From: an uncultured bacterium
Lineage (GTDB): Bacteria; Patescibacteriota; Minisyncoccia; Moranbacterales; GWC2-37-73
DNA: 42,808 nt
NCBI GenBank assembly: GCA_903851135.1
Contig: CAINNK010000037.1
Location: 65,320 to 108,127, forward strand
Direction of reading: 5' to 3'
The position numbers and the translations under genes were made by a program. Shown in pieces: positions 1,057 to 30,197 of this stretch; the stretch's first letter is position 1, and every line of letters starts with the position of its first letter. The notes beneath the pieces are model-generated. The model saw only the letters and a program-made list of their open reading frames with translations. It did not search any database and was not told the DNA's origin.

Positions 1057-2220
1057 CTAGATTATAAATCCGACTTTCTTTTTCACTTCATCCAATTTAG
1101 ATTTTGCCAGCGGCCGCACTTTTTCAGCCCCGGCGCGCAAAATTTCCATGGCATCTTCATCAGAGATTAAATTTAATTTTTCCTGAAACGGAGTTAAAAA
1201 GCTGTTGATAACCTCGGCTAAATCAGTTTTAAAATCACCATACCCTTTGCCGACATAAAGCGCTTCGATTTCTTTCGGGGTCTTGCCGGAAAAAGAAGCG
1301 AAGATATTGATCAAGTTTTTCAGGGCTGGTTTTTCATCACTGTAAACAATTTCACTGCCAGAATCAGTCACCGCTTTTTTTATTTTGCGTTTCACAGTTT
1401 CGGCATCGTCGGTCAAGGAAATATAGTTATATTCTGAAGTGGCAGACTTGCTCATTTTCTTGCTTGGGTCATCCAGTCCCATGACGCGCATGCCCTCTTC
1501 CTTAATGAAAGCTTTCGGCACAATGAAAGTTTCTCCGAATTTGTGATTGAATCGTTTGGCCAAATCTCGCGCCAATTCCACATGCTGTTTCTGATCTTCC
1601 CCTACCGGCACAACTTCCGTGCCATACAAAAGGATGTCAGCCGCCATGAGGACTGGGTAATCAAAAAGGCCAACTCCAACATTATTAAATCTTTCTTTGA
1701 TAAATTTCTGATAAGCATTTGCGGCAACTTGTGCGGTAACCTTGTACATTATGCCCATTAATTTTACAGGATCAATTTTTTTCATGTCCTCGATTTGTTC
1801 GCTTTTCAGTATTTCTTTAATCTCGACAATTGAATTTTCCCTTATAGCGATTTCAAAACCTTCAAAGTCAATGCCGGTCTTGTCTTTAAACTGGGTCATC
1901 TTATTTAAATCACCATTTTTTGCAATCGTATTTAATATCCAGCATAGCTCTGCATGCTCAGAAACTTGCGATTGGATGAAAATTGAAGATTTTTTCGGGT
2001 CGATGCCTGCGGCCAAATAAATCTTGGCAATTTCCAAAGTCTTTTTGCGCAGCGTATCTGGGTCTTGCGGCACAGTAATGGCGTGCAAATCCACCACGCA
2101 GAAAATCGATTCGAATTCATCTTGCAATTTAATCCAATTAGCGATAGCTCCCAAATAATTTCCAATATGTAAATTCCCGCTCGGTTGAATTCCAGAAAAG
2201 ATTCTTTTTTTGTCAGACAT
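1057..2220 (-). CDS. trpS: Tryptophanyl-tRNA synthetase
   Basis: FSGIQPSGNLHIGNYLGAI (HIGH-like) and DPSKKMSKS (KMSKS) motifs. Confidence 0.96.
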   Translation of the reverse strand: MSDKKRIFSGIQPSGNLHIGNYLGAIANWIKLQDEFESIFCVVDLHAITVPQDPDTLRKKTLEIAKIYLAAGIDPKKSSIFIQSQVSEHAELCWILNTIAKNGDLNKMTQFKDKTGIDFEGFEIAIRENSIVEIKEILKSEQIEDMKKIDPVKLMGIMYKVTAQVAANAYQKFIKERFNNVGVGLFDYPVLMAADILLYGTEVVPVGEDQKQHVELARDLAKRFNHKFGETFIVPKAFIKEEGMRVMGLDDPSKKMSKSATSEYNYISLTDDAETVKRKIKKAVTDSGSEIVYSDEKPALKNLINIFASFSGKTPKEIEALYVGKGYGDFKTDLAEVINSFLTPFQEKLNLISDEDAMEILRAGAEKVRPLAKSKLDEVKKKVGFII

Positions 2221-2442
2221 AATATTTTATAAAAAATATTTAATAATTTATTATCAATAATCCCTTAAAGAATGTAAAATGAAAATCTCAAAAATCAAAA
2301 TGACAAATTAAAATAAAAAATCAATAAAATATGCAAAAATTTTAAATTTTGCAATGTCATTTTCCATTTTGATTTTTAAATTTTCCATCAGACTTTCTTT
2401 AATACTACCAAAAAATGGGCTTTTTGCAAACGCCAATTTCCT

Positions 2443-2471
2443 TTGACAAATTATCATTAATGCTATATATT
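2443..2471 (+). promoter_or_regulatory. Sigma-70-type promoter for candidate ncRNA
   Basis: TTGACA (2443-2448), 17-nt spacer, TATATT (2466-2471). Confidence 0.7.
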
Positions 2472-2477
2472 ATCAAT

Positions 2478-2746
2478 GTTGTTGGATAATTGACAATGAT
2501 AGATCTTTGATACTGACAGCGTTATAGGCGTGTTATCGACAATTACAAGGCTGTCAGCGTTCGAGTATGTCAAAGGAAAGCTCCTAACAAGGAAACCCCC
2601 GAAGATAAATGTTGCAAAAACCTTATCTCCTCGCCAAGTCTTCCTTCCAAGTGAGCTTTCCAAGACATATTTTCACATTGGTTCATCGTAACCATTCTAT
2701 TTAATCTATCTCGCAAAGTAGCTACAGTAAAGCTACTTTTCTTTTT
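2478..2746 (+). ncRNA. Candidate structured non-coding RNA of unknown class
   Basis: Promoter upstream, terminator hairpin AAAGTAGCT/AGCTACTTT plus TTTTCTTTTT at the end; several nested perfect helices (see findings); no credible protein on either strand. Confidence 0.65.
2715..2746 (+). terminator. Intrinsic terminator of candidate ncRNA
   Basis: AAAGTAGCTacagtaaAGCTACTTTTCTTTTT. Confidence 0.7.
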
Positions 2747-2828: not shown

Positions 2829-4883
2829 TTAAACCTCAATCACCACTGGCAAAATCATTGGTCTTCGTTCAGTCTTGGTAAACAGAAATGAACCAACTGA
2901 TTCGCGAATGTTGTTTTTCACGTAGTCCCAATTGACTGAAACGTCTGCAGAAGTTTTTTCTTTGACGATCTTTTCCACTACGCGTTTAGTCGCATTGACC
3001 AAATCAAAATTTTCTTTGACGAAAATGAAACCGCGCGAAGTAATTTGCGGCGTGCCCACAATCTTCTTGGTCTTTGAATCAATCACTACTACAATCATGA
3101 ACATCCCGTCTTTGGCCAGCAGTTGTCGGTCACGCAGCACGACTTCGCCCACGTCGCCAACGCCCAGACCATCAACCATCACATAGCTAGTGTCGACTTT
3201 TTGTGGCAACATCTTAGCATTGCCACCAGTAACTTCCAATTGATTGCCATTATCCAACACGAAAATATTTTCTTTTTTGATACCAACTTTTTCGCCCAAC
3301 TTGCCAGCCTCTTTGAGCATATAGTGATTGCCATAAACCGGCAAAAAGAAAGTTGGCTGAATCTGATGCAAAACTTCTTTGATGTCATGGGCATTACTGT
3401 GTCCGCTAGTGTGCACATCCAGAATATCGCTATGGATCACATTGTCACACTTACGATAAAGATCATCTTTCAATCTTTGCACTGTGCGTTCATTGCCAGG
3501 CACGATTGAAGAAGAAAAGATCACCGTGTCATCTTTTTGCACGCGAATAAAACGATGTTCATCATTAACGATGCGAGAAAGGACAGCATTACCCTCGCCT
3601 TGCGCACCTGTGCAAATGACCACCACTTTGTTTCTTGGATGTTTGTGAATTTCATTGACCGAAATTTGAGTTTTCTTGAAATTTTTGATGTAACCAAGTT
3701 CTTTAGCAATCTCAATATTCATTTTCATAGAATATCCATCCAAAGCGACTTTCTTGCCGATTGAATCAGCATATTCAATGATTTTTCCAATGCGTTTGAT
3801 TTGTGAAGAAAAAGTTCCGATAATCACCATACCTTTAGCGTTGGCAACCAACTCATTCAAATTGACATACATATCACTTTCAGTTTTTTCAGAAATGTGC
3901 GTATCAGTGGCTCCCAAACTTTCCAACATCAAAATTCTTGGGGCTGGCAATTTCGAAAGATGACTATAGGTCACTCTTTCTAGATTGGCCGGATTGGTGT
4001 CCATAGTCCAGTCTCCAGGATGGATCACTGTGCCATCTGCCGTTTTGATAATCACGCCGACTGCATCCATCACGGAATGTTCAACATCAAAAAATTCAAT
4101 CTCGAATTTTCCAAGTTTAATTTTGTCAGCCAAAGTGTTGATGCGAATGGTTTTAAGTTGAGTGGTTGAATTTATCTCAAAGTCTTCCATTTTTCTTTTG
4201 ATCATCGCCAAGGTCAAATCACGTCCGACAATCGGTGGATAACCAAGTTCGCGCAGCAAAATTGGGGCTGCCCCGATATGATCAAGGTGACCATGACTAA
4301 AGACCACGCCTCGAACATTTTTTTCTTTGCCTTTCAGATAGCTGATGTTTGGAATAATATAGTCAATACCTGGCATATCTTCTTCTGGAAATTGCAATCC
4401 CATATCCAAGATGATGATGTCACCGCCGTATTCAAACATGGTCATATTGCGACCAACTTCTTCATTGCCTCCAATTGGAGTGATGCGCAAATGATCACTG
4501 GCGGGATTTCCTTGTGGTGTTTGCATTCTGCTAGGATTACTCCTGCGATTTCCTGCTGGGCGTCTTTTTCCACCTTGAGAGTGCCCGTTGCCATTGCCAC
4601 TCTTGCTGTTTGGAGCAACAATTTGAGCATTTCCAGCTGCAACGTTTGCAATATTTTGATTAGGATTGCGAGTAGACTTAACTCCACCACTGTGCCCAGC
4701 TGAAGCGTTTGCAACAGACGGAACATTTCTGACGTTTCTCGTATTTGAAACATTATGATGAGTAGGCCTGCCTGCATCGCTATGCGAAACATTGCGGGCA
4801 GGTTTTTTTTCAAAACCACCCACTGGCTTTTTTAAATCAGCCAAGATTTGACCAGTTATACTGGTGTCTTGTTTTTTAAACAT
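2829..4883 (-). CDS. rnj: Ribonuclease J with long N-rich disordered N-terminal extension
   Basis: Metallo-beta-lactamase motif FSHGHLDHIGAAP, beta-CASP features (VVICTGAQGEGNAVLSRI, HTSGHSNAHDIKEVLHQIQPTFFLPVYGNHYML). Confidence 0.95.
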   Translation of the reverse strand: MFKKQDTSITGQILADLKKPVGGFEKKPARNVSHSDAGRPTHHNVSNTRNVRNVPSVANASAGHSGGVKSTRNPNQNIANVAAGNAQIVAPNSKSGNGNGHSQGGKRRPAGNRRSNPSRMQTPQGNPASDHLRITPIGGNEEVGRNMTMFEYGGDIIILDMGLQFPEEDMPGIDYIIPNISYLKGKEKNVRGVVFSHGHLDHIGAAPILLRELGYPPIVGRDLTLAMIKRKMEDFEINSTTQLKTIRINTLADKIKLGKFEIEFFDVEHSVMDAVGVIIKTADGTVIHPGDWTMDTNPANLERVTYSHLSKLPAPRILMLESLGATDTHISEKTESDMYVNLNELVANAKGMVIIGTFSSQIKRIGKIIEYADSIGKKVALDGYSMKMNIEIAKELGYIKNFKKTQISVNEIHKHPRNKVVVICTGAQGEGNAVLSRIVNDEHRFIRVQKDDTVIFSSSIVPGNERTVQRLKDDLYRKCDNVIHSDILDVHTSGHSNAHDIKEVLHQIQPTFFLPVYGNHYMLKEAGKLGEKVGIKKENIFVLDNGNQLEVTGGNAKMLPQKVDTSYVMVDGLGVGDVGEVVLRDRQLLAKDGMFMIVVVIDSKTKKIVGTPQITSRGFIFVKENFDLVNATKRVVEKIVKEKTSADVSVNWDYVKNNIRESVGSFLFTKTERRPMILPVVIEV

Positions 4884-7537: not shown

Positions 7538-10500
7538 CTAATTTCCTCCGCCCAGTTTTGAAATCCAACCGAATTGATTAAGAAAAGTGCTAGTAATAAC
7601 TTCCGTTGCGTTGGCGCGTGATTGATCAACTGCAATTGTCATTGAATCAGAATTAGTGACATTTTCAGCCTCGTCAAAAGCACTTATTTGGTAGCTATAC
7701 ACTTGGCCCGTTTCTGCCGGAATCGTGATTAAATGATAAGTGTTAAAAGCATCATCAGCGGCGGTCTGTTCAAAAGATTTCGTGACAATGCCCTTCGCAT
7801 AGCCTATCTTTATTCTAGTTGGTTCATCTGTTTCTATTCTGATATAGACATTGGCTTGAGCGGTTTTTCCCCGACCCATAACTTTTCCAATAGCTCGACT
7901 GGAAACAATTGCTGGTGGACGCGAATCAAAACGCGTAGTGATTTTTTGATCAATATTTTTGGCGGCAATAGCATGCTCATCAACTCCTGAAATTTGAAGA
8001 GTGTATTCCACCGAGGGATCCAGCCCCGTGATTTCAGCACTATGATCAGTGGTGCGATCATTAACAAGATAGGTATGCGGACTTGATTCCTTAGCGCTTT
8101 GAAAAAGAATATAAGTTGTGGTTGGAACATTTGTTGTGTAGGCCACTACAATGGTTGGCAAATCAACATTCTCTTTGTTTTCAATAGTCACATTAGAAAC
8201 AGTTGGCTCCTGCGGAGTTGAAAAGGAATATTCATCTGACTTGAAAATATTTGCGTCACCATCTAAACAGCTAATTTGAATTTTGTAGTCAGTTGCTGGT
8301 ACCAATTTGTCAATTTTTTGCACATGACTAGAACCACCAGTTTCCTCTTTGATGCTCATTGAAGAACCACTACCATAATCAAGCGTGCAAGTTGCGCTCG
8401 TATTGGTTTTCCAAGAAACATAGGCTGTGTTAAGTTGAATGTCATTGACAAGTACTTCTGAAATTGTCGGTGGCGGTAAAGTTGTAAAACTGTTTATTTC
8501 TGAGGTACCTATATTGCCATCAGGATCAATATACTTGACTCGATAAAAATATTTCGTGCCAGCTTCCAAACCTTTGACCAAAACTACATGATCGGTCAAG
8601 GAGTCAACCTGCCCCGTTGTTTGTCCAAGTGATATTGATTTTCCGTATTCCACAAACGAACTGGCTACGCGATCAGTAACCCAGGCAATTTCCCCTTGGA
8701 ACGATTGCAGTTTACTGGTAGGCGTGCCAACAAGTTTCGGTGGGCTAGTATAGCGTCCAGTAGGAATGATGCTTACCGTTGTTGAAGCGATTGAATAATT
8801 GTTAGTCTTATCTTTAGCCTTGATGTAATAATAATAAATCTTGCTTTCCAGTTTTGTGTCCACATAGGCGCTTCCTGTGGTTTTAGCAATTTCAGTGAAA
8901 TTCAAATTGTCTTCACTGCGATAAATCACATAACCATCAAAATTTCCCAAACTAAGTTCGTCTGGTTTGACCCATTTAACAGCAATACTATACTCAGCAT
9001 TCTCACGATCAGAAGTGTCAAAGATTTGGATATTACCTGGTACGCCTGGAGCCGAAGTTTCTGCGAAGAAATTAACTGAGGCATAGTTGTTATATCCAAT
9101 GTTACCAGCTTGGTCAGCAGCTACCACAAAGAAAGTGTTCTGACCTTTTTGAGTTGCGAAAGATCCTGGACCAGCGGCACGCACATTGGTGGCGACCACA
9201 TTGTTTGGAGTCGGCAAAACATTGATTGAATAATAATAAGTAAGTTTATCAGCTTCGCCCACAAAGGAGGCTGGTTGATCCCAAGAAAAGGAAAAGAAAT
9301 TGACTTGCGAAGTTTGTGGAGCAACCACCAAATTTTCCGGCGGAGTTGGCGCACTGGCACTATAGTAATATTCTTGCATTATCGGTTCAGAAACATTGCC
9401 AGCGTTATCAACTGTTCTGAGAAAAAATTTATTTTTTCCTGATTGATAAGCGCCAGCTGGATGATCAGCATTAGGAATAGTCAATTGAAAAACACTAGGA
9501 TCATTAATATCCACCCACATGTTGGCAACGTCACCATCAGTGCGATATTGAAATTTTGCAATGCCAGAATAATCATCGCTAGCATCCGGCGTCCACAGAA
9601 AAGCATAATTATCAATCGCTGTATAGCCAGTCGGGGTTACTTCAATAGTGGTAGGATTCGTCGGCGCAATTGTATCATACTGATAAGTGAAGGCGCTGTA
9701 AGCTTCCGCTGGCACCATGTTAGCTTTATCTATTGCCTTAATTTTCAAATAATAAGCTTTGCCCGAAACAAGATTGGCTGCAGCGTAGGTATTGGAAGTT
9801 TGGAAGGTGCCTAAGGCAAAAGGATCAGCATTGGCATTGTCGCCAAAATAAACATAGTAACCGGAAACTCCGGAACCGCCAATATTATCAGCCGCACCAT
9901 TAGCTTGACCTTCACTCGGCCAAATAAAACTTGGGTTAGGGTATTTATTCCAGGCCTCTTGCGCAACTTGAGTTGTGTGAGATAAATCGCTATAAGCAGT
10001 TACCGCTGAAGGATTGCTTGGCGCAATAATGTCTTGATAATAGTTAACCGAATAGTCGTCAATTCTGGGAGAGAAAATTTGGTCCGTTGAAGACAGCGTG
10101 AAACGAACCTGAATAAATTCATTCCTTGGGGAATTAATTAAATAAGTATGTTTATCACCTTGGACTCTTTCATTAGTAGTTTGCTCCCAACTTGACCAAG
10201 CAACTCCATTAGCAGAAGTTCTTGTTTCTGCCAAAACAAAGGTATTGTTAGGTTGTTGATAATTTACCGTGAGGTTAGCCCAATCATAAACATTAAGCAA
10301 ATCTAGCACTTGACTGACATAGGTACCGGTTCGCTTGAAGCCTGTCTGAGAACTTCCCAAAACATAAGAATAAAGCCCATCATTATAAGTGTTTGTTCCG
10401 CTTCCAGCTATGGTCCAAATACGATTTCCGGCCGACATGCCTGCTCCGCCTCCACCAAAGCTAACCTGAGCTGGCATTGACGGAAGAGTTTCCCACGTAT

Positions 10501-13500
10501 TGTTGGCAATTTTGTAGCGAAAATAACCAGAAGTATTCCCACCTTGAGTCAAATATAAATAGCCATCACCACCATCAATCAATGCTGAGCCACTGCTAAT
10601 GGGTGTTACCGGGGTGACTGGTGGAATATCCGCAAGCCTGGTCCAAACATTTGTAATTGTGTTAAAACCATAAAATTGATTTGTGCTTTGACCCTTAGTT
10701 GAATAAATAATATTATCTTTAAACAAAAGCCTTGAGGCCGTTCCTTGGGTCCAGCCGGTTGTACTTGGAAGACTTGTATTGAGTTGTCCAAGATGGTTCA
10801 TCCAACGCGAACCCGAAACGGCCAACCTATCATAACGCCACCAGGTTGACCCGGCTCCAGCGGCAGTAAGATAAAGATAACGTGTTCCATCATAAATCAA
10901 GGAAACGCCAGAAGTATTGACTTGGGAGGGCGGCAAATTCGTAGTCAGCTCGGTCCAGGTATTTGTCAGAATATCGTATTTAAAGAAATAATTATTTTTC
11001 CCATTTACCCTTCTGGACGAAGTGTTAGCGCCAACTATATAATAAACTGCGTTTTCTTGGGAAACATACGCTATTTGTGAACCATCTACAGCGCCAATTG
11101 GCAAAGGAGCTAGCTGTTCAGATTTTCCCGTCAGCGGGTTATACCGATTAAATAAGGTATCCCATCCTCCTCTAATTATATAGGCATTCCCACTATTATC
11201 AGAAGTCATAGTAGCTCCACCCCCAAAAGGATAATAATTACTATTTGAAATAGTTGGCTCATGAAAAATACCTCGCGAAGGAAGTTCCCAGGAATTTTCC
11301 TCCAAGTTGTAACGCAAGAAAACAACATCACTCTCACCTTTCAATAAGTACAAATATTTTCCATCCAATAAACTTGAAGCTCCATATCCAATTGTTATCG
11401 GAGTATCAGCCAAGCGCGACCAAGTATCCGAAGCAACGTCATATTTGTAGAAATAATTTTTTCCCCAACCTGGAAAGAAATAAACCGTCTTCGTTTGACT
11501 ATCATATGAAGCGCTGCCTCCATTTTCAACTGCAACTGGAACTGGCGCCAAAGGTTTCCACTTACCAGCTATCTCTCCAGCTTCTGGATTATTACCAATG
11601 GCATACTTGGCGAAATATGGCGTGCCTGCACCTTGAAACATATAAATATCATTTCCACCATCAAAGAAAGCATCACCACCATTGCCAATAGATTGATAAG
11701 TAAATTCAGGATTACCAAAATCCAAAGTTCCAAGAGTAACCCAATTATTATTAACCGTATCATAACGGAAAAAAGAATTGTCACCACCTGGAGTGGAATA
11801 AATATAACGACTGCCATCATAAGTCAAGGTACCACCGTAAGTAAAATTCTGCGGAGCACTAGAAACTGTTTGCCACAAATCATTGGCAATATCATAACGC
11901 AAAAATGTTGAGGTAGCTCCTCCAGCTATAGCGTATAAAAATCCCGTCGGTCCGGCTACTAAAGACCCACCATAATAAATATTGACGGCTACACTATTAA
12001 TTAAAACATTTGATTTTGCAACCCACAAATTAGCCGCTGGATCATAGCGATAAAAATTAGGACGGTTTCCACCAACCAAAGTAAAGAAGTATGTTGTCCC
12101 GCCAGAAACGGCTTTTACTATTCTTGACCCATAATGAGCATAAGTAGGCATCGTGGCCACCCGACCTTCATTCCAAAATCCCCCATTTTGAGCCAGACGC
12201 ATACTACCATCAACATCGGTAGTTGAAACATCACTTGATGTTCCAGCATTAAAATCCACTGCACTGGTTTTTGTTTCGGCCAGAGTCGGTGAAACCCCAC
12301 TGTAAATATAAGTAAAAGCATCCCAGGCATCCGCTGAAACATTACCATTATTATCTTTAGTTTTAATGCGTAAATAATAATTTCCGGTTTGCAGCGCTTC
12401 AGCTATTTCAAAAAAGACTGTTTGTTGAAAAACTCCATCCGTTTGAGGATTAGCTGCTGCGTTCTGACCAAAATAAACATAATATCCGCTCACACCAGCC
12501 CCTTGATCGCTAGCCCCCGTCCAAGAAAAATATGGGTGACTATATGAATAGGAATTTCCGGCAACAATAACAACGCCGCCAATTCTTTTCGATAAGCCTG
12601 CTATGGCCGTTGGGTTTTGCGGCGCTTGATCTTCATTATTGTAAGCAATTTGCCAATCATTAACTGTGGGTGTATTAATTTTATCAGAAGAAGCAAGTGT
12701 AATTTTAACTTGGATATAACGTCTCGGAGTTGAAGCAATAGCTGTTCCAGTTACGCTCGTCCAAGCGTCCCAATTTTTATTATCAGAACTTGTGCGAGTT
12801 TCGTAGGTTATACTTGTATTTGTTGGCACAGAATCATTTTTAGTAAAAGACACCCAATTTTCAACCTGAGAAAGATCTTTGGATTCACTTATATAAACTC
12901 CTTGAGAAGAATAATTATTTGAACTGACAGTCAAACTCATTATCTCGGCTGTTCCTTGACCTAAAGCAGCATAAAAAGAATTTCCACCCACATATTCAAG
13001 CGAAGCGCCATTATATGCTCCTCGCGCATATGTAAAATCTTTGATTGAAGAAATTTTTCGCCAGGTATTACTTGCAATTGTATACTCCCAGGCCTCATCA
13101 CGATACCAACCAGCCAAAGCGTATATTTTACCATTAGCATAAGTTATATCGGTTCCATAAAATTGAGTAAAGGGTGTTCTAGCCAAAGCAGTCCAAGTAT
13201 TGCTGCTGGTAGTATACTTCAAAAAAATACTCTCACCAGCTCCGACTGTAGCAAAAATATCCGTGCCATTTGAAATCAGCCTGCCCCCATAAGAAGCTCC
13301 GTGAGAGGAGAAGCCAAGTCCTGTTGACGACATGCTGGCCATCGTTGCCCAAGTGTTGGTGCCTATATTATAACGATAAAAACTAGCGCTGCTCCCTCCG
13401 CGAGTCGCATAAATATAGCCATCTGAGGCATTGTAGGCCAAAGTTGCCCCATCAGTTGCTGTAGCCGAAGAAGGCAAGCTTGCAATTTCACCGACAGTAG

Positions 13501-15526
13501 ACCAAGTATTTAAAGCAACATTGTAGCGATAAAACTCACCAGAACCTCCTCCTTTGAAATAGTAAACGTAACCATTCGCATAGGTTCCCTTGATATCAGT
13601 ATTAACAGCAAAAGGAGTAGCGGAACCAACATTTGCCAAAGTAGACCAAGTGTTGGCAGTAATATCAAAACGATAAAATTGATAATTAGTTCCTCCTCCA
13701 CCTCTAATCGTATACAAATAACCACCCGCACCAGTCACTCCATTCCAAATCAAATCACTTCCGGTTCCAAGTGCTGCATTCAAAACACTAGAAGAATTTA
13801 CACTGTTGGAGGTTGTTTGTCCCTCATTAACCATTTGTGGTCCTACCCATTTTCCACTAGTGCCAACGCCAACTGTTCCACCTTGAGGATCGAATTTCCA
13901 CAAATCATAGCTACCTGCCCCTCTAAAAACATAGAGGAGTCCGTCCGCTGGATTATATTGCATTGAAGAGTTATATATATATCCAGTTGGTGCATCATCA
14001 GCCACATTCCAAGAACTCCAAACATTATCCGTGATGTTATAACGCATCATGTAGGTGTAATAAACATACACCCCGTTGTCAGCTCCACTGCTCGGCGTTC
14101 CTTCCCAAGAATTCAAATAATAGACATAATCCTTGTTGTCAGAAGAATTATGATAAAAAGTTCCTTTTTGCTCATGATTTAGAGCCGCACTTGAAAAACG
14201 AGAAAAGTCCGGGGAATTCGCCAAAGTAGTCCAAGTGTTGGCTACGATATCATATTTGTAAAAATTTTTAGTACCATTACCTCGAAGCATATAAAAATTC
14301 CCATTGGTTGCCTTGACCATACTTGCTCCAGTCGAGGTAGTGCCAGTGACAGGTGCTTCATTTTCCCAAGAATTTTCCGCCACATTAAATTTCCAAAAGT
14401 CTGTGGCGCCACAACCCCTATTAATGAAAACATTCGTGCCATCACTTTCCACGTTTGAGCCACCGCAAATCGTATCTAAGACGTCAGGAAGCTGAGTGAA
14501 AGACTGATTCACAATGTCATATTTATAAAATTTCTTAGAATAAGCTCCGAAAGTCAGATAGATCGTATTGTTTCCATCAAAACCCAAATCAGATCCAACT
14601 CCAAGTGTAAAAGGCAATTCTGGCAATAAATCATAAGCATCACGCTTGGTATCATAACGAAACCAGATCCGAGTTCCAACACCCTTAGTAATATAAACAT
14701 ATTGCCCTATCAGCACCGAACTTGAACCATTGCTAAAGCCACCAGCAGAATAATTTTGCTGAGGCACTCCCCAAACTCGAGCATTCCAAGAGCCATCTGG
14801 TTGTAACTTAATTGACCCATTGACATCCGAAACATCCACCGTAGTTGTTGCGCCTGCTTTCCAATCCTCGATTGTGGCAACACTAGTTGAATGTGGAGCA
14901 CTGAGTGCAAACGGCAAGATTGAAAATACCAGCAATAAAGTACCAAGGGAAACCGAAAAACGCCATGAAGCACCCCTAATGACTATCAAAGCTTTAGCGA
15001 TTGTTTTGTGAATTTTTTTCAGCAAGACCGACAAATAATAACGTTTCCAATATTTCTCACCATAACTTTCATTGCGAGCACTGTGCTTGGAAAGAAATTC
15101 GCCCAATGATTCCTGCTCAATGACAAGTTGTTTTTTCGCCTCTTTGTTTTGTTTTTTCAAAAATTTCAAACTAAAAACAATGCCCAGTGGTTTAAATAAT
15201 TGCTTGATATTTTTTCCCATAGCTAAGAAAATTTTTCCAACCAAAAAATTCAATTTCTCGCTGTGCTTTACACTAACAACTGTATTTTTCTTTTCTTTAA
15301 AAACGTCTCGTTTTTTTAAATTGGAATTTCTTTTCACAGAAAAAACTTTCTTTTCAGCTGAGGATTGTTTCAATCTCTTTTTTTCTGGCAAACAAACCAC
15401 CGAAAAAACGGCGGCGTCTTTCGACATCGTCTTTTTCTTGCTGACAATTCGTTTTGCAGAGCTATCTTTTCTACTTCTGCAAATCGTCTTTTGTTTTTTT
15501 GTTGTTTTTTTCTCCATTATTGCCAC
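7538..15526 (-). CDS. Giant (2662 aa) membrane-anchored surface protein with duplicated Kelch-like repeat arrays and Fn3-like domains
   Basis: Long basic N-terminus, one hydrophobic segment (WRFSVSLGTLLLVFSILPFALSA), many YRYDIxxNTWxxL units, two SGYYVYFG-containing Ig/Fn3 domains, C-terminal Fn3-like tandem domains. Confidence 0.9.
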   Translation of the reverse strand: MAIMEKKTTKKQKTICRSRKDSSAKRIVSKKKTMSKDAAVFSVVCLPEKKRLKQSSAEKKVFSVKRNSNLKKRDVFKEKKNTVVSVKHSEKLNFLVGKIFLAMGKNIKQLFKPLGIVFSLKFLKKQNKEAKKQLVIEQESLGEFLSKHSARNESYGEKYWKRYYLSVLLKKIHKTIAKALIVIRGASWRFSVSLGTLLLVFSILPFALSAPHSTSVATIEDWKAGATTTVDVSDVNGSIKLQPDGSWNARVWGVPQQNYSAGGFSNGSSSVLIGQYVYITKGVGTRIWFRYDTKRDAYDLLPELPFTLGVGSDLGFDGNNTIYLTFGAYSKKFYKYDIVNQSFTQLPDVLDTICGGSNVESDGTNVFINRGCGATDFWKFNVAENSWENEAPVTGTTSTGASMVKATNGNFYMLRGNGTKNFYKYDIVANTWTTLANSPDFSRFSSAALNHEQKGTFYHNSSDNKDYVYYLNSWEGTPSSGADNGVYVYYTYMMRYNITDNVWSSWNVADDAPTGYIYNSSMQYNPADGLLYVFRGAGSYDLWKFDPQGGTVGVGTSGKWVGPQMVNEGQTTSNSVNSSSVLNAALGTGSDLIWNGVTGAGGYLYTIRGGGGTNYQFYRFDITANTWSTLANVGSATPFAVNTDIKGTYANGYVYYFKGGGSGEFYRYNVALNTWSTVGEIASLPSSATATDGATLAYNASDGYIYATRGGSSASFYRYNIGTNTWATMASMSSTGLGFSSHGASYGGRLISNGTDIFATVGAGESIFLKYTTSSNTWTALARTPFTQFYGTDITYANGKIYALAGWYRDEAWEYTIASNTWRKISSIKDFTYARGAYNGASLEYVGGNSFYAALGQGTAEIMSLTVSSNNYSSQGVYISESKDLSQVENWVSFTKNDSVPTNTSITYETRTSSDNKNWDAWTSVTGTAIASTPRRYIQVKITLASSDKINTPTVNDWQIAYNNEDQAPQNPTAIAGLSKRIGGVVIVAGNSYSYSHPYFSWTGASDQGAGVSGYYVYFGQNAAANPQTDGVFQQTVFFEIAEALQTGNYYLRIKTKDNNGNVSADAWDAFTYIYSGVSPTLAETKTSAVDFNAGTSSDVSTTDVDGSMRLAQNGGFWNEGRVATMPTYAHYGSRIVKAVSGGTTYFFTLVGGNRPNFYRYDPAANLWVAKSNVLINSVAVNIYYGGSLVAGPTGFLYAIAGGATSTFLRYDIANDLWQTVSSAPQNFTYGGTLTYDGSRYIYSTPGGDNSFFRYDTVNNNWVTLGTLDFGNPEFTYQSIGNGGDAFFDGGNDIYMFQGAGTPYFAKYAIGNNPEAGEIAGKWKPLAPVPVAVENGGSASYDSQTKTVYFFPGWGKNYFYKYDVASDTWSRLADTPITIGYGASSLLDGKYLYLLKGESDVVFLRYNLEENSWELPSRGIFHEPTISNSNYYPFGGGATMTSDNSGNAYIIRGGWDTLFNRYNPLTGKSEQLAPLPIGAVDGSQIAYVSQENAVYYIVGANTSSRRVNGKNNYFFKYDILTNTWTELTTNLPPSQVNTSGVSLIYDGTRYLYLTAAGAGSTWWRYDRLAVSGSRWMNHLGQLNTSLPSTTGWTQGTASRLLFKDNIIYSTKGQSTNQFYGFNTITNVWTRLADIPPVTPVTPISSGSALIDGGDGYLYLTQGGNTSGYFRYKIANNTWETLPSMPAQVSFGGGGAGMSAGNRIWTIAGSGTNTYNDGLYSYVLGSSQTGFKRTGTYVSQVLDLLNVYDWANLTVNYQQPNNTFVLAETRTSANGVAWSSWEQTTNERVQGDKHTYLINSPRNEFIQVRFTLSSTDQIFSPRIDDYSVNYYQDIIAPSNPSAVTAYSDLSHTTQVAQEAWNKYPNPSFIWPSEGQANGAADNIGGSGVSGYYVYFGDNANADPFALGTFQTSNTYAAANLVSGKAYYLKIKAIDKANMVPAEAYSAFTYQYDTIAPTNPTTIEVTPTGYTAIDNYAFLWTPDASDDYSGIAKFQYRTDGDVANMWVDINDPSVFQLTIPNADHPAGAYQSGKNKFFLRTVDNAGNVSEPIMQEYYYSASAPTPPENLVVAPQTSQVNFFSFSWDQPASFVGEADKLTYYYSINVLPTPNNVVATNVRAAGPGSFATQKGQNTFFVVAADQAGNIGYNNYASVNFFAETSAPGVPGNIQIFDTSDRENAEYSIAVKWVKPDELSLGNFDGYVIYRSEDNLNFTEIAKTTGSAYVDTKLESKIYYYYIKAKDKTNNYSIASTTVSIIPTGRYTSPPKLVGTPTSKLQSFQGEIAWVTDRVASSFVEYGKSISLGQTTGQVDSLTDHVVLVKGLEAGTKYFYRVKYIDPDGNIGTSEINSFTTLPPPTISEVLVNDIQLNTAYVSWKTNTSATCTLDYGSGSSMSIKEETGGSSHVQKIDKLVPATDYKIQISCLDGDANIFKSDEYSFSTPQEPTVSNVTIENKENVDLPTIVVAYTTNVPTTTYILFQSAKESSPHTYLVNDRTTDHSAEITGLDPSVEYTLQISGVDEHAIAAKNIDQKITTRFDSRPPAIVSSRAIGKVMGRGKTAQANVYIRIETDEPTRIKIGYAKGIVTKSFEQTAADDAFNTYHLITIPAETGQVYSYQISAFDEAENVTNSDSMTIAVDQSRANATEVITSTFLNQFGWISKLGGGN

Positions 15527-21218: not shown

Positions 21219-22067
21219 CTATTTATCAAATTTTTTTTGAGATTTTCTTTGTAATAAAAAATTTTTGCCGGTCACCACGCTCTTGCCAGTTTTTTCTTCC
21301 AAAGCAACCCGCGCATCCTTGGCAATTCTGCCACCTCTCTTGGCTGGCACCTTGTTTTCTGTTAAACCCTTGGATTTCATTGTTTCGGCAATTTGGCGAG
21401 TTGAAAGTTCTGCCAAGGCCGTGAAGACGAGTTCCGCATCTGACATATGGTCACGTAAATTTTGAGTCTTGAGTTTTTTCAAATTTTTGTGTTCAACCAC
21501 AGTCAGGTCACTCCATTCTTGATGGATTATATTCGTCAAAATTGCAAATTCAGTTTGACCAACAACTTCACTGCTTTTCCAATAGTCCGTCAGTTTATTT
21601 CTGATTTCCTGGCCCATCATTCGTTGTTGAATCCAACTTTTGCTCCTGCCCTGCTTTTGCCAATATCCCCTTGAACGATTCAAGGCCTTTTCCGGATCAC
21701 TCATTTCTTGCATTCTTTCATAACCGACTTTCGCCAACCAAAGTTTAACTGGCTCAGCTTTTTTAGATGGCACCGATTGAATCAGGCGCAAAATGGTTTC
21801 CGTGCTAGCAACATCGGTCTTGTAAAATTTTCCATCAGCAGAAAACATTTTCAGTTGGTCACATTTCGTGACCAACTGACTTCCTTCATTTTTTAAGCGA
21901 TTCTTCAAGGTTGTCCAATAACTCTTGGCTTTTTTGAAATCCTCCTGTTCTATCAGAGCAGCCACGATATCAATCACAGAAAAAAACCAAGTTTCAGTTT
22001 TTTCGTCGTAGTGCCTGCGAATTTTGAAATTTTCAAAAATGGCTAGCGAGTTTTGATTTTTGTTCAT
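21219..22067 (-). CDS. BRO-N / DinD-like protein (DNA-damage-inducible protein D / antirepressor family)
   Basis: NFKIRRHYDEKTETWFFSVIDIVAALIE (Bro-N), RLIQSVPSKKAEPVKLWLAKVGYERMQEMSDPEKALNRSR..YWQKQGRSKSWIQQRMMGQEIRNKLTDYWK. Confidence 0.88.
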   Translation of the reverse strand: MNKNQNSLAIFENFKIRRHYDEKTETWFFSVIDIVAALIEQEDFKKAKSYWTTLKNRLKNEGSQLVTKCDQLKMFSADGKFYKTDVASTETILRLIQSVPSKKAEPVKLWLAKVGYERMQEMSDPEKALNRSRGYWQKQGRSKSWIQQRMMGQEIRNKLTDYWKSSEVVGQTEFAILTNIIHQEWSDLTVVEHKNLKKLKTQNLRDHMSDAELVFTALAELSTRQIAETMKSKGLTENKVPAKRGGRIAKDARVALEEKTGKSVVTGKNFLLQRKSQKKFDK

Positions 22068-29778: not shown

Positions 29779-30181
29779 GGGGTTGTTTAGTTTCGACAGG
29801 TTGTACTTTTCAAGATATGCAAGTCGATTACCGCTGCTGGATCGTAAAAAGTGTGGCGAAGATATAAGTGCAAACTTCATATCAAAGGCGAAGACTACAT
29901 TTGCGCAAGCATTTGCCAGTTTCTCTCCTGCTTTAGCTTAGGCTTGAAGCCATCGAACTGCTGATTTCTCGTAAGCAGAGCTCGGTGCCAAACATGAGAA
30001 TAGCTTGATGCGGTTTTTCAGACGCACCAAGCAAAACAACTCTGAAAACGATACTTGGAGGTTTTGTTTGTTTCCTACTCCAAAATACCGTATCCCGATT
30101 TATCGGGAATGAAACAAACTAAACTTGTAGAGGCTTTTGAATCGTTAATTCTGGACGCGAGTGCAATTCTCGCCAACTCCA
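29779..30181 (+). ncRNA. ssrA: Transfer-messenger RNA (tmRNA)
   Basis: 5' GGGGTTGtttagTTTCGACAGG pairs with 3' CAACTCC-A; T-arm GGACGCGAGTGCAATTCTCGCC; internal tag ORF ending TAG; adjacent to smpB. Confidence 0.94.
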
Positions 30182-30197
30182 CAAAGTTTTTGGGGTG

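Follow-up and report, generated by a model that had tools for sequence, protein, structure and literature searches.

The described RNAs that come closest to the one reported here are the stand-alone intergenic small RNAs (sRNAs) of bacteria, with which it shares a sigma-70 promoter of its own, a length of 200-300 nt, modular stem-loops, a 3' terminator and the absence of an open reading frame (ORF). It differs from them in having no detectable C-rich seed, no Shine-Dalgarno (SD)-directed region and no known partner protein, and in how quickly its arms diverge among members of a single genus. 6S RNA (RF00013) is likewise a stand-alone gene of a similar size class, and stem-loop 2 of the RNA described here is, as in 6S RNA, a long hairpin with internal loops; in contrast to 6S RNA, however, our RNA has no match to the model of that family, has three arms and is lacking in two congeners. 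Bacterial RNase P RNA (RF00010) is comparable in size range and in being a stand-alone gene, but its model does not match either. The likeness to the raiA/ModT (PMC11706538), OLE (PMC9723947), ROOL and GOLLD RNAs is a general one, in that all are structured intergenic RNAs from comparative genomics. Our RNA differs in having no Rfam match, in being much smaller than OLE, ROOL and GOLLD and in occurring in one genus only.

The locus occupies positions 2443 to 2746 of the window, by which we mean the whole stretch of 42,808 nucleotides that was analysed, from an ultra-small and uncultured bacterium, and it is very probably a structured RNA gene. Our literature search returned no report of stand-alone regulatory RNAs in these reduced bacteria. 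The genus has few SD-like starts and no recognisable 6S or SRP RNA, so its use of RNA regulation is a question, and the RNA gene makes that question testable. As a candidate the gene is well delimited: it has a promoter, a terminator and a conserved structure, there are empty sites to compare it with, and one duplicate is diversifying.

The RNA gene and its neighbours

The gene (2443-2746, plus strand) comprises a promoter, three stem-loops and an intrinsic terminator. The sigma-70 type promoter (2443-2471, plus strand) has TTGACA at 2443-2448 and TATATT at 2466-2471, separated by 17 nt; it matches the consensus at 11 of 12 positions and was the top promoter-like site of the region in a promoter scan. 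Judged by promoter spacing, transcription would start at 2478, and the predicted transcript (2478-2746, plus strand) of ~265 nt is supported as a structured noncoding RNA by its fold, its homologues and covariation, all described below. The terminator, AAAGTAGCT...AGCTACTTT followed by a T tract (2715-2746, plus strand), was identified in a terminator scan, in which its hairpin (2715-2739) with the T tract was the sole terminator detected in the region, with 0.4 expected; the homologues have an equivalent GAGTAG..CTACTC and T tract. The RNA gene is divergent from trpS (1057-2220, minus strand; Pfam tRNA-synt_1b, 1.7e-79) and convergent with rnj, which encodes RNase J (2829-4883, minus strand; Pfam RNase_J_b_CASP and RNase_J_C). 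This promoter, this terminator and this placement had all been named in an earlier, sequence-only reading of the DNA, and the two scans and the Pfam assignments of both neighbours bear it out.

Divergent from the RNA promoter, a putative promoter TTTGCA-17-TAGTAT (2402-2430, minus strand), which was read directly and scores below the promoter-scan threshold, may drive trpS. The same TTTTTGCAA...-type stretch adjoins trpS in the related genomes G001, G002, G003, G004 and G016. On the other side, a palindromic terminator of the bidirectional type, AAAAACCCAGC TTTC GCTGGGTTTTT (2753-2790, assigned to neither strand), was also read directly; it is probably the 3' terminator of rnj, and such a terminator ends rnj in genomes without the RNA as well. 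The trpS product of the window has an additional segment, at about residues 117-179, which G003, G004 and G010 share and which G001, G002, G005 and a large number of relatives lack.

The RNA adjoins trpS in three genomes and, in G004, with one copy out of two, which could suggest that it acts in cis on trpS or rnj, as an antisense or leader element. We consider this very unlikely, as the RNA runs away from trpS and ends short of rnj, and as a partial match of AGACAU to the start of trpS in the window is lost in G002, where trpS starts with ATGACT. Antisense action on the trpS start (AGACAU/AUGUCU) was rejected because this pairing is not kept in G002. There is no plus-strand gene downstream, rnj being on the opposite strand, so the RNA is not a leader; a T-box or other cis-regulatory leader was rejected on this ground and because the RNA ends in a terminator.

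Distribution within the genus

A DNA search of 96 relatives gave one clear match (E 1.5e-11), in the congener G004, and the trpS-rnj gaps of other genus members contained two further copies, one each in G001 and G002, whose positions correspond exactly. A covariance model built from four sequences (the window, G001, G002 and the first-found G004 copy) revealed that G004 has a further, divergent copy, which lies just upstream of trpS and is oriented divergently from it. Homologous rnj-trpS intergenic regions had been put forward earlier as a check on the RNA, and the homologues now found there are in equivalent position and covary. In total, the RNA is present in four of the six genomes of the genus examined, in five copies, three of which are in the trpS-rnj gap.

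The G004 copy found first is on a different contig, 3.5 kb past rnj and at the contig end, where it follows genes for riboflavin kinase, riboflavin synthase, lumazine synthase, a PEP-utiliser and a PaaX-like protein. The two G004 copies are almost identical in their 3' part and differ in their arms. Between them are IS-like inverted stretches at the contig ends and a short repeat of trpS-side sequence, and the pair may have arisen by a duplication that was later split by an insertion. Clean empty sites, with trpS and rnj adjacent and no RNA, are found in G003 and in G016, which is of another genus, and in G005 the trpS-rnj position holds other genes and no RNA. The two congeners that lack the RNA, G003 and G005, are both rated 99% complete. 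In a tree of RNase J, in which the placement of the outgroup is poorly supported, the genomes that carry the RNA are spread across the two halves of the genus.

Among 113 relatives, the stem-loop 3 motif and the covariance model gave no match outside the genus members that carry the RNA. Across 384 genomes of the class, searched with stricter filters that weak relatives could escape, the covariance model likewise gave no homologue beyond this genus; its matches in two distant genomes (E 0.02-0.04) are at chance level over 384 genomes and were discarded. When 85,462 species genomes were scanned for the stem-loop 3 motif, seven stretches were found, three of them in genus members, and the remaining four have no model match and were put down to chance. 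Found only in one genus, and in four of the six species examined, the RNA can thus be regarded as an accessory gene of that genus. Separately, a copy of stem-loop 3 with three mismatches occurs at G004:C15:3722-3740, followed by a terminator-like hairpin and with no recognisable arms, and is possibly a chance occurrence.

The patchy presence in the genus with clean empty sites, the duplication and the fast-changing arms would all be explained if the RNA were a mobile or conflict-related element, such as a defence RNA, an antitoxin RNA or the remnant of a transposable cassette, and the two divergent G004 copies, separated by contig ends with what looks like IS-type inverted sequence, may point in the same direction. 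Nevertheless, we find this explanation unlikely. The RNA is always in the trpS/rnj neighbourhood, it has neither terminal nor direct repeats, and neither it nor its stem-loop 3 motif was found in the viral contigs, phages and plasmids searched. No reverse transcriptase, nuclease or toxin was present among the neighbouring proteins tested, and the defence library matched only a weak Cas2-like domain of the PaaX protein in G004.

Fold and its conservation

The minimum free energy (MFE) of 2478-2760 is -75.2 kcal/mol compared to -51.7 +/- 4.6 kcal/mol for dinucleotide shuffles (z -5.06), and none of 200 shuffles was as good; without the terminator, the fold has a z of -3.98, again with 0 of 200 shuffles as good. 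In the MFE fold, stem-loop 1 (SL1; 2513-2557, plus strand) pairs CTGACAGC (2513-2520) with GCTGTCAG (2550-2557). Stem-loop 2 (SL2; 2565-2670, plus strand) consists of the helices P2a, P2b and P2c and a variable apex. P2a pairs GTATGTC (2565-2571) with GACATAT (2664-2670) and is fully paired across the copies with one G-U variant, and P2b (GGAAAGCTC, 2575-2583, with GAGCTTTCC, 2653-2661) and P2c (AAGGAA with TTCCTT) both show compensatory changes. Stem-loop 3 (SL3; UGGUU-CAUCGU-AACCA, 2679-2694, plus strand) is the most conserved element, with the consensus UGGYUCAKCGUARCCA, and the copies agree in it completely or almost completely. A pseudoknot between the SL3 loop and another part of the RNA was rejected, as the loop has no consistent partner.

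Most of the arms proposed in the sequence-only reading recur in the MFE fold, namely, TGACAGC/GCTGTCA, the two strands of P2b, AAGGAA/TTCCTT, AGATAA/TTATCT (which falls in the variable apex of SL2) and TGGTT/AACCA. A further proposed pairing, CTTTGA/TCAAAG, is not in the MFE fold and is absent in the homologues, and its 3' strand runs into the beginning of the conserved P2a/P2b region. The proposed closing helix GATAGAT/ATCTATC does form in the fold of the window RNA and has a weak counterpart in G001 and G002, but none was evident by inspection in one of the G004 copies, G004a. Both of these pairings are probably either mistaken or unconserved, and the conserved helix P2a had been overlooked.

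All five copies share the same order of elements, with TTGACA-17/18-TATAxT at the equivalent place, followed by SL1, SL2, SL3 and the terminator, and the core of each copy beats all of its shuffles (z -3.7 to -6.8). The SL2-SL3 fold has a z of -6.64, and 91% of its cells are paired, compared to 25-49% when the partners are slid. Five pairs are changed on both sides, in P2b, P2c and P3, which is equalled by 1 of 500 shuffles, and the covariation score is equalled by none of 500; in P2b, A-U is replaced by G-C at two pairs, and in P3, C-G is replaced by U-A. These data comprise four independent sequence states in an alignment that, being model-fitted, leans towards its structure, and the covariation evidence is good but not final because of the small number of sequences and the fitting. 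SL1 differs in sequence between lineages, and a long stem is found directly 5' of SL2 in every copy, with a strong fold z only in the two G004 copies. No conserved ORF was found on either strand, as lengths, frames and sequences are not kept between copies, and a small ORF or translated product was rejected since no frame is kept.

A structure that is kept while the sequence drifts, and one hairpin with an invariant-type loop, are also in line with the RNA being part of a ribonucleoprotein, in which it would sequester RNA polymerase like 6S RNA or titrate an RNA-binding protein, acting by structure and not by pairing. Such a protein-binding RNA is our next choice after a trans-acting regulatory RNA, and we regard it as possible but doubtful. 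The family has no recognisable 6S RNA, so that role would be vacant; however, the 6S model has no match here, there are three separate arms and not one long open-promoter-like hairpin, and two congeners lack the RNA.

Known RNA families and possible function

A cmscan of the window with Rfam 15 gave no family at gathering threshold at the RNA locus, in agreement with the earlier impression that the conserved cores of known RNAs were missing. The only two matches in the window at gathering score, a tmRNA and a tRNA, are both elsewhere. Low-score matches at the locus were mostly on the shared GC-rich terminator hairpin at the rnj end, and it was there that BSnc120, the highest-scoring of them, matched with 35 bits where 114 are required. 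RNase P RNA (RF00010), tmRNA (RF00023), SRP RNA (RF00169 and RF01854) and 6S RNA (RF00013) were each rejected as identities, with no match at the locus. The tmRNA of the window (29779-30184), located between smpB and infC, was found by Rfam (122 bits) and missed by ARAGORN. The small and large bacterial SRP RNA models and the 6S model had no match in nine genomes of the family (G000-G005, G007, G009 and G014), in which SRP RNA has either disappeared or diverged beyond what these models recognise. These missing SRP and 6S RNAs leave some room for a housekeeping RNA that has diverged beyond model recognition, which is nonetheless extremely unlikely: the only RNase P RNA match of the genome is on another contig (G000:C20:7018-7286), tmRNA is accounted for, and the RNA is missing in the two 99% complete congeners and in all other genera searched.

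A TIGR/CRISPR-type guide array was rejected, as 2380-2830 contains no direct repeats, and so was a retron noncoding RNA, as the neighbouring proteins tested contain no reverse transcriptase domain. What the locus does have is what characterizes a stand-alone bacterial sRNA gene: its own promoter, an intrinsic terminator, conservation, compensatory changes and no ORF. Judged by its sequence, the RNA is a new, genus-restricted and unclassified family of the ordinary stand-alone sRNA kind. The "new class" proposed in the sequence-only reading stands as far as it is a new family without an Rfam match, but the kind of RNA is ordinary, and the family is confined to one genus.

Our preferred reading, which we hold tentatively, is that the RNA is an accessory trans-acting regulatory sRNA. 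Strongly promoted and terminated, the structured RNA of ~265 nt would act in trans, and its targets would not be the adjacent genes in cis. The constant 3' part, SL3 with its CAKCGU loop and the terminator, would be a module for stability, for partner binding or for both, and the fast-changing SL1 and SL2 would be the adjustable part that meets the target, through base pairing or protein contact. In favour of this are the promoter and terminator in five out of five copies, the absence of a downstream gene on the RNA's strand, the homologues with their covarying fold, the lack of a conserved ORF, the near-constant SL3 and the G004 pair with its matching 3' parts and differing arms; the patchy presence and the second, divergent G004 copy belong to the same picture. 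The commonest sRNA mode, a C-rich anti-SD sRNA, is not supported. Unpaired bases are neither enriched in C nor depleted in G compared to shuffles, which gives no hint of a C-rich antisense seed, and an SD-like motif is found in only 2 of 29 start regions (window 1057-42669), which makes an anti-SD mode unlikely. It is distinctly improbable, but would fit the constant 3' module, the diversifying arms and a locus that gains, loses and duplicates the RNA, that the RNA serves an ultra-small, episymbiotic bacterium in conflict or in interaction with its host, through a mechanism not yet described for sRNAs.

Two other features of the window deserve mention. A giant protein of 2662 residues (7538-15526) has many Kelch repeats and fibronectin type III domains and is probably a surface protein. 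A BRO-N domain protein (21219-22067) has a very strong match to the candidate defence family PDC-S13 (2.5e-114).
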